Assembly (NCBI GenBank): GCA_009782955.1
Contig: WRIB01000032.1
Coordinates: 1 to 33,738, forward strand
Direction of reading: 5' to 3'
Length of the DNA: 33,738 bases
Source of the DNA: Treponema sp.
Lineage (GTDB): Bacteria > Spirochaetota > Spirochaetia > Treponematales > Breznakiellaceae
In this document: positions 15,634-22,990 of the stretch, one piece after another
How positions within the stretch are numbered: the first letter of the stretch is position 1
Layout of the letters: every line of letters starts with the position of its first letter
Notes under the pieces: generated by a model
The model's input: the letters and a program-made list of their open reading frames with translations, nothing else
Database searches by the model: none
What the model was told of the DNA's origin: nothing
Translations under genes and position numbers: made by a program

Positions 15634-15739
15634 ATAAAAAAAATGGATTTCTTAAACCCCAATACCTAGAAAAAATCACTTAAATTTATTAAATTCAAAA
15701 CATAGAAAAAAATTTCTGTTTATACATCAGGAGGCTAAT

Positions 15740-16264
15740 ATCGGAAAGCAGCTTGTTTTACTATTGGTGATTTTCACACTTTTGTCTCTGCAAAATATAC
15801 TGGGATATTTTTTTCAAATACGGCAATATCAAAAAATGATTAGAAAATGGCTGGGGAAGGGTATTTTGGGTATTGGTCAAAGACGTGGTCTGTTTACACC
15901 GGGAGAAATAATTATTCTGGTTTATGACACAAGGGCAAATGCGGCAATTACCGTCCAATCCATGCGGGGTTATTCGATTTTTGTTCGTTTTAAGGAAAAA
16001 TCGGATTGCCTGGGCCTTTCTCTGGAAGAACTGCGCCGGCTGGGTTTGGAAGCTGACCGCCATGATCTGGGGTTATGGCGTATCTTTTTTCGTTATAAAC
16101 CGCAAAAGCTTTCCAAGCAAAAAGGTGCGTTGATTCAGGCAGTAGAAGCAGTTGCAAAGAAAATGGCGTCGGAAGTAAGTGATGTACCTGCGATACAGCA
16201 ATTTTTGGCAGCGATGCCTTCGTCAAACATCATATCGGAGAGAGATAATGCCGGACAATATTAA
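15740..16264 (+). CDS. GutM-like membrane-anchored regulator
   Basis: The product resembles GutM, the activator of the glucitol operon: one N-terminal membrane helix (residues about 4-22), then YQKMIRKWLGKGILGIGQRRG, TPGEIIILVYD and a soluble C-terminal part of about 110 residues. In enterobacteria GutM controls sorbitol PTS genes. Here the next gene resembles the C-terminal half of the sorbitol permease SrlE, which supports the link. The start is unusual. AGGAGG at 15729-15734 stands five bases before an in-frame ATC at 15740; the first standard start is TTG at 15764, 29 bases from AGGAGG, and would cut into the membrane helix. I give the longer form (174 residues) as the better guess. Confidence 0.65.
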   Translation: MGKQLVLLLVIFTLLSLQNILGYFFQIRQYQKMIRKWLGKGILGIGQRRGLFTPGEIIILVYDTRANAAITVQSMRGYSIFVRFKEKSDCLGLSLEELRRLGLEADRHDLGLWRIFFRYKPQKLSKQKGALIQAVEAVAKKMASEVSDVPAIQQFLAAMPSSNIISERDNAGQY

Positions 16265-16868
16265 ACAACAGTTATTTGATACAGCAAAAAAAGTTTCTGT
16301 TTTTTTGGGCAAAGCTGCACGGTTTACTTTAGAGCGGCTGCTTGTTATATACAAAAAAGTTCTTCCTTTTTTGGAAAGGGCGGTGCGGATTATTTTAGAT
16401 CTGCTGGTCCGTCTTGGCAGGCAGATACTGCCGGTGCTAAAAGCAATGGCGCCGTCTGTTCTGCTTGGTGCGGTGACTTTTATTCTTTTGTTCTTAACAG
16501 GTTTGGGGGATACAATAGGCAGGGAATTGGCTCTTCTGACAGGTATTGTTCCGGCTTTGTTGATTATTTTTGCAATTTGTTTTATTCCTGCTGTTTCTCC
16601 TGTACTGGGACCCGGAATAATAATTGCAGTAGCCGCAGCTATATTTACAGGAGAACAAATCGCCGGAGGAATGGCAAAACCGGTTGTTGCTTTGGCAGCT
16701 TTGCTTGCTCTTGATGCCCAGCTTGGCGGCAGTTTTATTCCTCCAAACCATGTCCTGGGCGAAAATGAGCCGGAGACAATAAGCGCCGGAGTTCCGGGGA
16801 TCGTATTTACCCGGCTGCTCACCGTTCCTGCAGCGGTATTGCTTTCCTGTTTGCTTTCCTTTTTATAA
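16248..16868 (+). CDS. SrlE C-terminal-domain-like membrane protein, no PTS EIIB
   Basis: The 206-residue protein starts at an ATG seven bases after CGGAG and overlaps the GutM-like gene by 17 bases. Residues 1-70 are amphipathic, Lys/Arg-rich helices in place of the phosphorylated EIIB domain. The remainder has three or four membrane segments, with SPVLGPGIIIA, IAGGMAKPVVALAALLALDAQ, GGSFIPPN and the ISAGVPGIVFTRLLT motif, which I recognise from the C-terminal part of the glucitol/sorbitol permease SrlE. No EIIA, EIIB or EIIC2 gene lies nearby. It could be a reduced transporter or a membrane partner of the GutM-like protein. Confidence 0.7.
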   Translation: MPDNIKQQLFDTAKKVSVFLGKAARFTLERLLVIYKKVLPFLERAVRIILDLLVRLGRQILPVLKAMAPSVLLGAVTFILLFLTGLGDTIGRELALLTGIVPALLIIFAICFIPAVSPVLGPGIIIAVAAAIFTGEQIAGGMAKPVVALAALLALDAQLGGSFIPPNHVLGENEPETISAGVPGIVFTRLLTVPAAVLLSCLLSFL

Positions 16869-16894: not shown

Positions 16895-16916
16895 GGCTTG
16901 CCTCGGGGAGCCTCAT
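16895..16916. repeat. Dispersed GC-rich hairpin element, also at 27762-27783
   Basis: These 22 bases are an exact inverted copy of 27762-27783. Read on the minus strand the element begins at the MscS stop codon (TGAGGCT) and can fold by pairing GGCT with AGCC around CCCCGAGGCA. It lies between convergent genes and may act as a terminator, although no strong T run follows. Confidence 0.6.
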
Positions 16917-18115
16917 TTCCGCTTGTCGTCAATCAGATTAATTCTAAAGTGAGCTGCGGTCATATCCAGTCCGGCTTCTTTAAAGCCATTTTGAATGTTT
17001 TCGAATAATTCCGAATAAATCGACGGCACCAGATCCACGGTCTTGGTATATGCATTAATCTGATAGCGTGCGTAAAAATCTTCCAGAGCGGTTTGCAGCA
17101 CGAAAGGTTTTGGGTCGTCCAGAATATGTTTTGTTTTTAAAGCTGCGTTGACAAGAATTTCGTGTACCGTTTGCCAGGCTAATGCATAACAGAAACTAAT
17201 CTCTGCATTCAGGATAAGTCCCTGTTCGGTTGTGGATGTGTGGTAGTTTATGATATTTGAAGTAAGAACCATACTGTTGGGAAAAGTTACATATTCGTTC
17301 TTGTGTGTTCGCAGCCGGATAATAACCGGAGACTTTTCTACCACAAAACCTGTTATGTTCTGTATTTGAATACGGTCCCCAAGTTTAAATGGCCGCATGT
17401 ATGTAATAACCAGCCCTGCAACAAGGTTGCCTATGGCCGGGCCTGATCCAAAAGAAATGATAATGCCTACAAAAACCGAAACACCCTGGAAAATTCGTGA
17501 ATCCGCTCCGGGCAGGTAGGGGTAAACCATCGCCACGGTAAAGGCATAGATTAAAAACCGGAGTATATTAAAGGTAGGATGAGCCCAGTCCGAATAAAAA
17601 CCCGGGACAACCAGTTTTTCTTTTTCAATCCGGTCGGCAAAAAATTTAAGAGATCGGATTAAATACTTTGATACAGCAATAAACACTATTATGGTTATAA
17701 TGTTGGGGATATAACGGATAATTCCGGCAATTACCTTGTTAATGGGGGCAAGTATATAACCCAACAGTGCATGGGCCAGATTGGAGGTTGGTTCAAAAAG
17801 ACTTAAGACCAAAGGAATAGTAAGGAAAAGCTGAATGGCTATGACCACCCATTTTCCGATTCTGATGAAGAAATATATTGCTCCCGGTATTTGAGCAGCT
17901 TCCAGAATGCGGATTTTCTTTATGGTTAAAGCAGGGGAATATTTTTTTATTAAAAAAGCAGCTTTTTTCTGCAGCCAGCGAAAAAAGATTACTACAACCC
18001 AAATCAGGATAATCTGAACAATAACAAAGGCTGCTGCAACACCCAGCCTCAGGGTCAAGGCTGATGAGAAAATATCTCCGGAAAGCAACGCCAGTATATT
18101 TTTTATATTATCCAT
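16913..18115 (-). CDS. MscS-family mechanosensitive channel
   Basis: The 400-residue inner-membrane channel should open under membrane tension during osmotic downshock. Four or five membrane helices precede the pore helix FGSGPAIGNLVAGLVITYMR and the family motif PFKLGDRIQI. FPNSMVLTSNIINY marks the beta domain, and a C-terminal alpha/beta domain follows. It starts 20 bases after the carbamate kinase gene on the same strand, with no clear promoter between, so it probably lies at the end of the agmatine operon. No Shine-Dalgarno is seen at the ATG. Confidence 0.92.
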   Translation of the reverse strand: MDNIKNILALLSGDIFSSALTLRLGVAAAFVIVQIILIWVVVIFFRWLQKKAAFLIKKYSPALTIKKIRILEAAQIPGAIYFFIRIGKWVVIAIQLFLTIPLVLSLFEPTSNLAHALLGYILAPINKVIAGIIRYIPNIITIIVFIAVSKYLIRSLKFFADRIEKEKLVVPGFYSDWAHPTFNILRFLIYAFTVAMVYPYLPGADSRIFQGVSVFVGIIISFGSGPAIGNLVAGLVITYMRPFKLGDRIQIQNITGFVVEKSPVIIRLRTHKNEYVTFPNSMVLTSNIINYHTSTTEQGLILNAEISFCYALAWQTVHEILVNAALKTKHILDDPKPFVLQTALEDFYARYQINAYTKTVDLVPSIYSELFENIQNGFKEAGLDMTAAHFRINLIDDKRK

Positions 18116-18135: not shown

Positions 18136-19065
18136 CTACCTGATAATTGTACCACTTTTTCCGTTGAGCGCAAGAGATGCTTTATCCAGCGAGCCGACAA
18201 TGGCTTTGCGGTTTTTTCCGCCTTCCACAAACAGGCAGGCTGCCTGCACTTTGGGCAGGATACTTCCCGGCGCAAAATGCCCGGCTTCAATGTAAGCGGC
18301 AGCGACAGCAGCATCCATCTCGGCAATTTCTTCCTGATTGGGCTTGTTGTAATTAAGGTATATGCGATCCACCGCCGTCAGGATAATAAAAATATCGGCA
18401 TTGACAAGGTCGGCAAGTTTTGCGGCGGCAAAATCCTTGTCAATTACTGCATCCACGCCCATGTAACGCTTGCCGCGGTACACCACCGGAATGCCGCCGC
18501 CGCCGCAAGCGATAACAACTTGTCCTGCATCTACAAGTGTCTTCAGGGTTATTTTTTCGTATATATCAATCGGTCTGGGCGAAGGAACGACACGCCGCCA
18601 GCCGCGTCCGGAATCTTCCGCATAAGGACAGCCTGTCGTTTCCATAAGGTGCTTTGCTTCCGCTTCGCTGTAATATCCGCCTACGGGTTTTGTCGGATGT
18701 TGAAACGCAGGATCATTTTCGTCCACCACCACCTGCGTTAACATTGCAACCACGGGTACTTCGTCGTAACCTCTGGCTACCAATTCTTCATCAATAGATT
18801 GCTGCAAATGGTAACCGATATACCCCTGACTCATGGCGGTACATTCAGGGAAGGGCATAAGCGGTGCCATGCCGTCTTTATAACAGCGTTCAAAAGCAAG
18901 CCGGATATGGCCTACCTGCGGCCCGTTGCCGTGGGCAATAATTACCTGATTTCCCATTACGATAAGGTCAACAATTGATTTGGCCGCCAACTGGCTTTTG
19001 TCAAGCTGTTCCTCCGCCGTATTTCCCAGCGCATTTCCCCCCAAAGCAATTACGATTTTTGACAT
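18136..19065 (-). CDS. arcC: Carbamate kinase
   Basis: The enzyme transfers the phosphate of carbamoyl phosphate to ADP, giving ATP, CO2 and ammonia, the energy-yielding last step of agmatine or arginine fermentation. The 309-residue protein has VIALGGNALG at the N-terminus, AHGNGPQVGH, SPRPIDIYE, IACGGGGIPVV, and VDAVIDKDFAAAKLA, all standard for the family, and normal length. GAGG lies eight bases before the ATG, within the end of the preceding antiporter gene. Together with ptcA and aguA it makes this an agmatine pathway rather than arginine deiminase. Confidence 0.96.
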   Translation of the reverse strand: MSKIVIALGGNALGNTAEEQLDKSQLAAKSIVDLIVMGNQVIIAHGNGPQVGHIRLAFERCYKDGMAPLMPFPECTAMSQGYIGYHLQQSIDEELVARGYDEVPVVAMLTQVVVDENDPAFQHPTKPVGGYYSEAEAKHLMETTGCPYAEDSGRGWRRVVPSPRPIDIYEKITLKTLVDAGQVVIACGGGGIPVVYRGKRYMGVDAVIDKDFAAAKLADLVNADIFIILTAVDRIYLNYNKPNQEEIAEMDAAVAAAYIEAGHFAPGSILPKVQAACLFVEGGKNRKAIVGSLDKASLALNGKSGTIIR

Positions 19066-19068
19066 GCT

Positions 19069-20427
19069 TTAACCTCTTTTTTTATTTTTTAAACGTAAAA
19101 GAACCAATTCTCCCGAAATAATTCCCACTATGGAACCGATCACCAGCGGAATTTTATCTTCAAGCTCGCCGTACTCAAGCGGTACGACCGTGAATACCAG
19201 CGTTACGCATAATAAAATCAGCGGCAGACATGCCGCAATTGTCAGCAGTTTCGGGCTGCCGGGCATTTTATACGGCCGTTTTAAATCCGGATCCATTTTA
19301 CGCAGTTTTAAAAACGCCGGGAAAAGAGGCACATACGATAACAGAAACATTACCAGGCTAAGAGCGAAAAAATTCCAAAAAAGACGTTCCGAAGGGAATA
19401 AAGGGGCGATTAACAGAAGCGCTGTAGCAAGACCTCCGTCCATAAGCGCCGCACCGAGCGGCACCTGATTTTTTTTTGTAGAAAGGGCAAATATACCCGG
19501 CATACCGCCGTCCCGGGCACAGTAACGCGCCACAAAATTAACACCTACCACCCAGGACAATTGGTTGGAAAACATTGCAAACAAAATCATAATACCGATA
19601 ATGACGATAAACCCGGACCCTGATACACCAAGTATAAAACTCATCGCATCCAGAATACCCATGGATTCCGAGATTTCCGCCACGGGGATAGATGCGGAAA
19701 TACAAAAAGCCGCCAGCATATACAATGCAGTAACTACCAGCCCGCCGGTAAAAATGGCGCGGGGAATGTCGTGCCGTGGGTTGGGCATGCTGTCTATGTA
19801 GGTGGCGACGACCTCAAATCCCATAAAATTAAAAATGATTATGGAAACATAGGACAGGCTGCGCAGATCTGTACCCGGCAGTATATTTTGCATGGTAATG
19901 GGATTTGCAACGCCATTTTGGAAAGCGGTGTATATTCCTGCAGCGCCAAGGCCAATTACGATTACTATTTTAAGCATTGTGCCGATGTTGAGCAGCCATT
20001 TGCTTTCCGAAAGCCTTAAAAGACTGGAAATCGTAACGCTCCAGACAAAGCAGAGTTGTAAAACGGTGATTGCGTATACAGGCAGATCTCTGCCAATAAT
20101 AAGCTGCAAATTGTCGGTAACCAGCACCGAACCCGAAGCCATCCACAGCGGAAGGTTAATCCAGTAGTACCAGGCAACTCTTGCGCTCCATTTTGGTCCG
20201 AACGCCCGGTTTACCCAGTTGTACATACCGCCTTCACTTTCGTAAGTAACACCAAGTTCTGCGGACATAAGGGCGTATGGAAGGCAGAAACAGAAAAGCA
20301 GGAAAATCCACCAGAAAAACTGGCTGTTGCCTATCGAAGCGGCAGGTGCAGCGGCATCTACCGCCAGAACCAGGCATACCACCGCCAGCACGCAGTCAAA
20401 AAGTTTGAAATTCTTTTTAATTGCCAC
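19069..20427 (-). CDS. Second APC-family antiporter of the agmatine operon
   Basis: This 452-residue protein is a paralogue of the aguD product encoded at 21602-22990. Both begin with KxFxLFD, continue AAAPxAxIGNSQ-FWW, and share AELGxTYxxEGG and RVAWYYWIN. About 12 membrane helices are predicted. The start is a GTG at 20427, six bases after GGAGG; an upstream TTG is less likely. It probably exchanges a guanidino or polyamine compound, such as agmatine for putrescine, but a different specificity is possible because the canonical operon has just one antiporter. A strong hairpin separates it from aguA, so its expression may be lower or independently set. Confidence 0.88.
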   Translation of the reverse strand: MAIKKNFKLFDCVLAVVCLVLAVDAAAPAASIGNSQFFWWIFLLFCFCLPYALMSAELGVTYESEGGMYNWVNRAFGPKWSARVAWYYWINLPLWMASGSVLVTDNLQLIIGRDLPVYAITVLQLCFVWSVTISSLLRLSESKWLLNIGTMLKIVIVIGLGAAGIYTAFQNGVANPITMQNILPGTDLRSLSYVSIIIFNFMGFEVVATYIDSMPNPRHDIPRAIFTGGLVVTALYMLAAFCISASIPVAEISESMGILDAMSFILGVSGSGFIVIIGIMILFAMFSNQLSWVVGVNFVARYCARDGGMPGIFALSTKKNQVPLGAALMDGGLATALLLIAPLFPSERLFWNFFALSLVMFLLSYVPLFPAFLKLRKMDPDLKRPYKMPGSPKLLTIAACLPLILLCVTLVFTVVPLEYGELEDKIPLVIGSIVGIISGELVLLRLKNKKRG

Positions 20428-20454
20428 GGCGTGCCTCCGCAATTAACATAAAAG

Positions 20455-20487
20455 AACAACTCCTCACTGTTTAAGTGAGGAGTTGTT
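20455..20487 (-). terminator. Intercistronic hairpin between aguA and second antiporter
   Basis: A perfect 14-bp stem (20455-20468 with 20474-20487) encloses a five-base loop. Read in the operon direction it is followed by CTTTTATG, a short T-rich tail. It looks like a partial terminator or an mRNA-stabilising hairpin that lowers expression of the antiporter and arcC. Confidence 0.75.
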
Positions 20488-20507
20488 AATTCAACCAATA
20501 TAAATAA

Positions 20508-21599
20508 TTATTTTGGCTGTTGCTGTGTAATACAGTGAATATTGCCTCCGCCCAGCAGAATCTCGCGGGCAGAAACCCCTACTGTTTTCCGGCCGGGGAA
20601 AGCTTTTTTCAGCAATTCCTCCGCCTGTTTGTCCGTGGCATCATCCAGCAACGGAAACACAATCCCGCCGTTTGCTATGTAAAAATTAACGTAAGATGCA
20701 GCAAGCCGGTCACCTTCCATGCGCGGCAGTGTACCTTCGATTGCGTCAACGCCTCCGCTTTCTTCCTTTGTAATAAGCACCGGTCTGGGCAGCGGCATCT
20801 TGATGATTTCCAGTTTACGGCCATTTGCGTCGGTTGCGTCTTCCAGGAGCTTAAGATTTTCGGCGCTGATTTCGTACTGGGGATCGTTTTTATCATCTGT
20901 CCAGGCGAGCATAATTGTTCCCGGTTTTACCACGCAGAGAATGTTATCCACATGGCCGTTGGTTTCGTCGTTATAAATCCCGCGCTTAAGCCAGATAATT
21001 TTCTGGACACCCAGATATTCTTTTAACGTTTCTTCAATTTCTTCTTTGTTCATATGCGGATTGCGGCCTTCTGACAGCAGACATTCCTCGGTGGTGAATA
21101 AGGTTCCTTCCCCGTCCGTATGTATGGAACCGCCTTCCAGAACAAACCCGTCAGTACGGTAACTGTCTTTACGCTCAATTTCACAAATCTTATGCGCCAC
21201 AAGATCATCCTGATTCCAGGGGAAATAAAGGCCGTCTACCAAGCCGCCCCACGCGTTAAATTCCCAGTCTACCCCTCGGATAACGCCGGCGTCATTTTTT
21301 ACGAAAGTAGGACCGCAATCCCGAACCCAGGAGTCGTCATTGGAGATTTCCACCACCCGCACGCCGGCGGGCAGTGATGCAACTGCGTTATCGTACTGGC
21401 GGGCGCTTACACCCACGGTAACAGGTTCAAACTGTAAAATAGCTTCCGCTACTTTAACAAATGCCGTCTGTGCAGGCTTGGCGCCCAGGCGCCAGTTGTC
21501 GGGACGCTCAGGCCACAGTATCCAACAGCCTTCGTGCGGCTCAAACTCACCCGGCATACGGAATCCATCCTTCCGGGGCGTAGTGTTGAGGAGTTTCAT
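20508..21599 (-). CDS. aguA: Agmatine deiminase
   Basis: The enzyme hydrolyses agmatine to N-carbamoylputrescine and ammonia. The 363-residue protein shows the family motifs [48 protein letters not shown] and the C-terminal [14 protein letters not shown] containing the nucleophile Cys356. Length and active site are complete. GGAGG stands seven bases before the ATG, and only two bases separate it from the upstream antiporter stop, so translation is probably coupled. The order ptcA-aguD-aguA matches known agmatine operons. Confidence 0.97.
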
Positions 21600-21601
21600 A
21601 T

Positions 21602-22990
21602 TTAACCCTCCGCTTTTTTCCCTGTCAGATAAGCGATCACCTCACCCGCAATGATTGCGGCAATAGTGCCGTACAGCAGCATAGAGTCAAATGTCCAGGC
21701 GCCGTCTTCGTCCGGAAAATACATGCAGAAGAAAGCGGCAAGTATCAATAACACCATGGGCAGGTATGTAAACAGATTGATAATGAAAGGCCCGCCGGAT
21801 ACCTTAAACGGCCTGTTGGCATCGGGATCGATAGCCCTGAGTTTCTTAAACGCAGGGAACATCAGTATATAAGACATCAGCAGGGTGATGATCTGCAGCG
21901 CAAAAAATCCCCAGAAAATATCATCAACATATTCTTCGGGTATTAAAGCGGCAACAATAATCATAACGCTTGCAACAATACCGTTCATCAATGCAGGACC
22001 AAGACGCGAATCGTTTTTACCTTTAAGAGCGAAAAACTTGGGCAATGCCTTGCTTTCGGCAGCATAAGAGGCTACATAATTAACGCCGAGTGCCCAGGAA
22101 AGCAGATTGACGACAAGCGTGAATAAAAACGCGATGCCGATTATTGGAACAAGTACGTTGCCGGGAAGTCCAAGATTGTCAAAGAAATAGATAAAACTTT
22201 CCAGGAATCCTTCCGAAATGGATACTTCTGCGCCCTGTGTCAGTTCGTCAACCGGAATGGCGACGCCAATTCCGAAAGCTGCGAAAATGTAGAACACCGC
22301 TATAAGAATACCGCCCGTAAGCAAAGCTTTGGGGATTTCTTTTTTCGGCTCCTTCATTTCGGATGAAAAAGTTGCGACTACTTCAAAGCCCATAAAGTTG
22401 AACAGTATAATTGCAATAAACGATATGCCCATGAAATCGGGAAGAAGATCCCTTGCGGATGTTATGGGATTGGCGAAACCGTTCTTTACCCCGTAATAAA
22501 TGCCGAACAGGCCCAGCGAAACCATCAATATAATTTTTATCGCTGTGCCTATGTTTATAAGCGTTTTATTTTCTGAAACAGAATACAGACTGAGGATGTT
22601 CACCACCCAAATAAACACAAGCTGGATTAAAACAGCCAACACAATGGGTATTTCTATCCCAAATGCCTGATCTATAATCCCGGTAAACAAGACGGCAAGG
22701 GATGCCATCCAGAAAACATAGTTGATCCAGTAATACCAGGCAACACGGCTTCCCCATTTGCGCCCGAAAGCGCGCTTTATCCAGTCGAAGAGACCGCCCT
22801 CATCTGCATAAGTAGTGCCCAGCTCTGCCGAAACAAGACCGTACGGCAGAAAAAATGCGGCCAGCAGCAAAATCCACCAGAAATACTGGCTGTTACCTAT
22901 CGCCGCAGAAGGAGCTGCTGCCTCTACTACCAAAATAAGGCATACAGTGGCAAGAACTGCGTCAAATAACCTGAATTCTTTTTTCTTCAT
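21602..22990 (-). CDS. aguD: Agmatine/putrescine antiporter, APC superfamily
   Basis: The 462-residue inner-membrane protein has about 12 predicted membrane helices and the APC start [37 protein letters not shown] matches the conserved helix 6 region of AguD-type transporters. By position and family it should import agmatine and export putrescine, so the pathway runs without spending ion gradients. AAAAGGAG lies ten bases before the ATG. A palindrome of the same family as the one at the DeoR promoter lies just upstream at 23021-23045. Confidence 0.92.

Follow-up and report, generated by a model that had tools for sequence, protein, structure and literature searches.

The window analysed here is the whole 33,738-nt contig WRIB01000032.1 of a Treponema sp. 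assembly (GCA_009782955.1), which is genome G000 of our survey, the contig itself being G000:C32. It carries a pair of overlapping genes, gutM and a shortened srlE (hereafter srlE'), that belong to families of the glucitol-type phosphotransferase system (PTS), together with the following features:

15729..15734, plus strand: Shine-Dalgarno motif aggagg of gutM, read directly from the sequence
15740..16264, plus strand: gutM, encoding a GutM-family protein of 174 aa with an N-terminal membrane helix, three strands and two helices
15740..15742, plus strand: AUC (ATC) codon at which gutM probably starts, from a conserved column and the lack of an upstream start
16248..16264, plus strand: overlap of gutM and srlE', 17 nt by their coordinates
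16248..16868, plus strand: srlE', encoding the C-terminal (EIIC') domain of a glucitol PTS EIIBC protein without EIIB, 206 aa
16248..16370, plus strand: SrlE' residues 1-41, basic and amphipathic, with no counterpart in full-length SrlE (BLASTP covers 42-205)
16593..16862, plus strand: EIIBC-GUT_C Pfam domain, aa 116-205 of SrlE'
16913..18115, minus strand: MscS-type channel gene, outside the module; a DXR-II gene sits between SrlE' and the MscS gene in the sister genome G053

Beyond the channel gene, the minus strand of 18136-22990 encodes carbamate kinase, two amino-acid antiporters and agmatine deiminase, which we take to be an ordinary agmatine deiminase cluster.

In profile searches the GutM protein matched PF06923 with 62.6 bits and SrlE' matched PF07663 with 71.5 bits, both above the cut-off of 25, which agrees with an earlier note on this DNA that had recognised a GutM-like protein beside an SrlE half-domain. 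Against the equivalog model NF007592 the window GutM scored 35.7 and stayed under the threshold of 148. The hydrophobic segment of GutM spans aa 5-23, and its AlphaFold2 model reached a pLDDT of 72.5 and a pTM of 0.62, while SrlE' was poorly predicted (pLDDT 61, pTM 0.34). Only the secondary structure of GutM is used here from these models, and a structural search with both gave zero significant fold matches for either protein.

The start of gutM had previously been placed at 15729, a position that proves to be the first base of the aggagg motif, and translation probably starts at the conserved AUC codon at 15740. Indeed, ATC occupies the start column in 13 of the 14 gutM genes compared, which share ancestry and are not 13 independent events, and GGAGG precedes it in 11 of these 13. 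No in-frame ATG, GTG or TTG was found 5' of the ATC in the own genome, G189, G191, G018 or G044. The column is unlike an ordinary isoleucine codon, since the isoleucine codons inside these genes are ATC in only 31 of 131 cases. GutM has been named a transcriptional activator since the 1980s. In lactic acid bacteria, the accessible part of one study (PMC5723342) presents it as a predicted membrane-anchored activator, with residues 1-21 predicted to be membrane-located, that raises operon expression and is harmful when overproduced. A weak AUC start would hold the GutM level low, and this would fit the reported harm of excess GutM.

The NCBIfam SrlE models match srlE' only over positions 173-327 of about 330 (179-327 of 330 in the SrlE equivalog model), which shows that the EIIB half is missing, as the earlier note had it. 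Similarly, BLASTP against full-length spirochaete SrlE gives 42% identity across SrlE' residues 42-205. The further proposal that amphipathic basic helices replace EIIB held in part: the N-terminus is truly basic (12 K/R vs 5 D/E in residues 1-62), but the part that full-length SrlE does not match is only about 41 residues long. The SrlE' of G191 (L036 5877-6755) has a much longer N-terminal extension, about 150 residues of repeated basic helices with 29 K/R and 0 D/E. The overlap with gutM is common to the other adjacent unfused pairs, those of G189, G053 and G018, and probably reflects translational coupling.

The distribution of these genes was surveyed by profile searches in the 195 genomes of the GTDB family. 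PF07663 is present in 17 of them and GutM in 18, including all 17 with PF07663; in the eighteenth GutM genome, G005, a contig end falls within the EIIBC gene. Nine of the 17 encode a full-length SrlE of a glucitol-type PTS (about 151-157 bits, frames of 325-348 aa), and the other eight the reduced form (74-103 bits), each of them with GutM. These eight are G000, G189, G053 and G191, which form one genus, G018, and G054, G134 and G135 of a third genus, g54. The genomes of the nearest relatives presumably come from termite gut. In a sample of the phylum (392 genomes), PF07663 was found in five, the low-scoring reduced form being that of the own genome only, and two loci of this sample (L044, L046) have a separate SrlE C-domain gene with EIIC and EIIB genes adjoining. 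A contig scan with the alignment of the reduced SrlE' returned 12 loci, seven reduced and five of PTS type, all from Treponema, Spirochaetaceae or Spirochaetia, and no reduced form outside these spirochaete loci.

The other PTS parts are absent from the reduced genomes by the same kind of search. EIIC (SrlA, profile EII-GUT) was found in none of the eight, and the EIIB domain (EIIBC-GUT_N) and EIIA (PTSIIA_gutA) in none of the four searched for them, the own genome included; all three profiles were found in four out of four PTS-bearing relatives. The absence of EIIA and EIIC near the pair, already remarked upon from the window, extends to the whole own genome (85.9% complete), where none of the three profiles matched and no complete glucitol PTS able to use the pair was found by these searches. 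The pair is built from PTS parts, as had been suggested. As the reduced assemblies are 64-91% complete, SrlE' might still be a permease half that uses PTS proteins missed through genome incompleteness. It is however very unlikely that eight assemblies would all miss the same linked genes by chance, and at those reduced loci for which both flanks were read, the neighbouring genes are there with no PTS gene between them, so that we regard this reading as highly improbable.

GutM and SrlE' are adjacent or fused in seven of the eight reduced genomes, and both are present, unlinked, in the eighth, so that the co-occurrence which the earlier note proposed to check holds across related spirochaetes. 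In this eighth genome, G191, the contig with GutM is not the one that carries SrlE' and DXR-II, and both frames are intact. In the genus g54, GutM and SrlE' form a single open frame with a Pro/Ala-rich linker between them (G054, G135), and the same arrangement, cut by a contig end, is seen in G134. Retention of both genes in fused, overlapping and unlinked arrangements alike is the behaviour of a functional pair, the fusion and the overlaps bearing only indirectly on a putative contact between the two proteins.

The gene order of relatives points to the source of the pair. Their full operon reads SorC-type regulator, GutM, EIIC, EIIB, SrlE-C, EIIA, DXR-II-like oxidoreductase and EI, and it adjoins CarD in G052 and L053. 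Beside CarD, GutM-SrlE'-DXR-II is found in the reduced genome G018 and the fusion in G054 and G135; the loci of G018 and G054 adjoin CarD-IspD-IspF, like the PTS operons of relatives. The sister genome G053 has the order GutM-SrlE'-DXR-II-MscS and the window GutM-SrlE'-MscS, its own DXR-II being on another contig (G000:C38). This DXR-II-type gene, which keeps the same company and stands beside the pair in G053, was omitted from the earlier note. The simplest history is that EIIC and EIIB were lost from between GutM and SrlE-C, and EIIA later. One branch of the SrlE-C tree (support 99/96) separates all SrlE' proteins from the others, and one of the GutM tree (84/86) does so for the GutM proteins of the reduced form, while the DXR-II tree requires three changes and leaves 8 of 13 inner branches open. 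A single origin of the reduced form is unsure, the trees having long branches.

Both genes of the pair are under purifying selection, to different degrees. Between the own genome and G189, dN/dS is 0.098 for gutM and 0.38 overall for srlE', with 0.28 in its core and 0.68 in residues 7-62. The C part of the fused SrlE' gives 0.30 (G054-G134) and 0.48 (G054-G135), and the fused GutM parts, compared between two genomes, 0.39. In the PTS operons the corresponding values are 0.02-0.07 for SrlE-C and 0.13-0.16 for GutM. GutM is hence about equally constrained with or without a PTS, save for the 0.39 of the fused genus, and SrlE' is relaxed but not neutral. The alignment shows that GutM retains its invariant core. 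For SrlE-C, 54 positions are fixed over 11 PTS-type proteins, including E. coli SrlE; 13 of them are retained in all eight reduced proteins and 41 are altered in at least one. The conserved Asp that aligns with position 162 of the own SrlE' is replaced in all eight.

Such values might be left by a slowly decaying rest of the PTS operon without any present function. This would account for the climb of SrlE-C dN/dS to 0.28-0.48 after loss of the PTS genes, compared with 0.02-0.07 in their presence, for the 41 altered positions, and for the location of the pair in G018 and G054 at the old operon site; moreover, the congener G190 is without both genes, though it is only 72% complete. On the contrary, frames are intact in all eight reduced genomes (one being cut by a contig end), the gutM dN/dS of 0.10 is low, and G191 retains both genes despite their lost linkage. 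In a neutral-drift simulation at the observed dS, the frame stayed open in only 3% of the runs for srlE' and 0.3% for gutM, i.e. it was broken in 97% and 99.7% of them. We therefore consider decay without function unlikely.

The altered residues bear as well on a role in transport. SrlE' could self-assemble as a polyol facilitator that needs no phosphorylation and has GutM for an accessory subunit. It retains the hydrophobic segments together with the motifs SP-x-x-G-x-G and GE-x-I-A, and the domain is known to occur in an oligomer, the SrlA-SrlE permease (PDB 9x2m), to which SrlE' is homologous through the SrlE C-terminal domain (E = 1.2e-16 for chain 1). However, 9x2m contains SrlE and SrlA with three chains apiece, and SrlE' alone would therefore be half a permease at best. 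The SrlA partner is absent from all eight genomes, and the window system is also without the EIIB domain and EIIA. SrlE-C and SrlA were also compared as possible repeats of each other, a relation that received no support (hhalign probability 0.1%), hence there is no evidence that either could replace the other. Finally, the residues invariant over the 11 PTS proteins and replaced in all eight reduced ones, the Asp at position 162 among them, disfavour an unchanged sugar-translocating role. A facilitator of this kind seems to us improbable, and a conventional transporter role of the pair less likely. The earlier note had left the choice between a non-PTS transporter and a membrane sensor: a sensor is the better fit, GutM being under stronger constraint than SrlE', and the transporter option is less supported, given the missing SrlA and the changes in SrlE-C.

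We tentatively favour a PTS-derived, non-PTS membrane module in which GutM would be the working part and SrlE' its membrane partner, without holding this reading with confidence. The pair would descend by reduction from a glucitol-type PTS / DXR-II operon, with loss of the EIIC, EIIB and EIIA genes and, at the locus, of EI, HPr and the SorC-type regulator as well; what would be left is GutM, the C-domain of SrlE and a DXR-II elsewhere in the genome. GutM, held by its single N-terminal helix, would be a membrane-bound regulatory or tethering protein, and SrlE' its membrane partner or scaffold. We infer that the two associate physically, in a presumed membrane orientation and with a putative regulatory role, as a small membrane complex that would neither move phosphate nor serve as a PTS permease. 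This module has its weak points: slow decay would relax the constraint on SrlE' in the same way, GutM has the higher dN/dS of 0.39 in the fused genus, the SrlE' structure model is poor and neither model found a significant structural match, and the window has no remaining target regulator next to the pair.

A DXR-II-type enzyme keeps company with the pair. The DRL_cat domain (PF21135) is found in 22 of the 195 family genomes, i.e. in all 18 with GutM and in four of the 177 others, and it scores above the cut-off in all eight reduced genomes. The nearest solved relatives of this DXR-II are 3upl and 3upy, presumably the structures of Brucella DXR-II. In Brucella numbering, the accessible part of PMC3847144 lists the residues G121, T229, H250, R320 and V351, of which four are present in all 20 proteins compared and V351 in 16, the own protein having Ile. 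In G000 (L039 9210-15846) and G189 (L040 9395-18270), DXR-II is divergent to genes for a LacI-type regulator and a sugar ABC importer, so named from sequence reading, as if the importer replaced PTS uptake.

Outside the spirochaetes, plasmid records with SrlE also encode DXR-II in at least 24 of 40 cases (at least 17 within 10 kb and at least 24 within 15 kb), a lower bound based on 60 of 111 enzyme records, many of them near copies. Four alphaproteobacterial plasmids, those of Rhizobium, Nitratireductor, Aminobacter and Terrarubrum (L061, L064, L065 and L066), have GutM and a glucitol-type PTS with EI less than 20 kb from DXR-II. In the Rhizobium plasmid a TPP-dependent E1 alpha gene comes directly after DXR-II, where the stretch ends, and in the other three DXR-II is followed by E1 alpha, E1 beta and E2, the Terrarubrum E2 passing the cut-off of 307 of the acetoin dehydrogenase E2 model with 377.5 bits. 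This gene order suggests a route from 2-C-methylerythritol via MEP and DXP to acetyl-CoA and glyceraldehyde 3-phosphate. In a plasmid of Ligilactobacillus salivarius (L062 5986-13230), fructose-6-phosphate aldolase and transketolase come after DXR-II, glucitol PTS A/C/B, GutM and a regulator, possibly a different ending of the same route. In the open-access literature, which was the scope of the search, none of the matches listed describes this 2-C-methylerythritol breakdown route.

On this basis, GutM may have a general role in 2-C-methylerythritol / deoxyxylulose-phosphate metabolism, as a membrane-bound protein for signalling or tethering, and in these spirochaetes it would act as a PTS-free sensor with SrlE'. 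The parent operon would then be an undescribed breakdown pathway, in which a glucitol-type PTS makes MEP from 2-C-methyl-D-erythritol, DXR-II runs reversed to yield DXP, and, in Alphaproteobacteria, an acetoin-dehydrogenase-like complex cleaves DXP to give acetyl-CoA and glyceraldehyde 3-phosphate. We put this forward as a doubtful but conceivable extension.

The module may be compared with known systems. It differs from the SrlA-SrlE permease in the missing parts and altered positions described above. With the GutM / SrlM activator (PF06923) it shares the family match, the N-terminal hydrophobic helix and the conserved domain, but the window GutM has no adjoining glucitol operon or regulator and probably starts at AUC, and in one genus its counterpart forms a fusion with SrlE'. 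Split SrlE genes of other spirochaete families (L044, L046) similarly encode a free-standing C-domain of 175-180 aa, whereas the adjoining EIIC, EIIB and GutM genes make them a PTS with a split gene. The permease-less, incomplete PTS of Brucella, in the accessible part of PMC2937029, is likewise a PTS cut down to some parts and thought to be regulatory; it represents the opposite remnant, since here a permease piece stays and the phosphotransfer parts are gone.

According to the accessible part of PMC3847144, some bacteria with an orphan DXR-II have no other MEP-pathway genes, and the operon context described here offers such enzymes a possible catabolic role. For these spirochaetes, the fusion points to the SrlE membrane domain as the likely partner of GutM. 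The presence of GutM without any glucitol PTS separates its role from sugar transport and makes that role testable; GutM probably serves an independent function.
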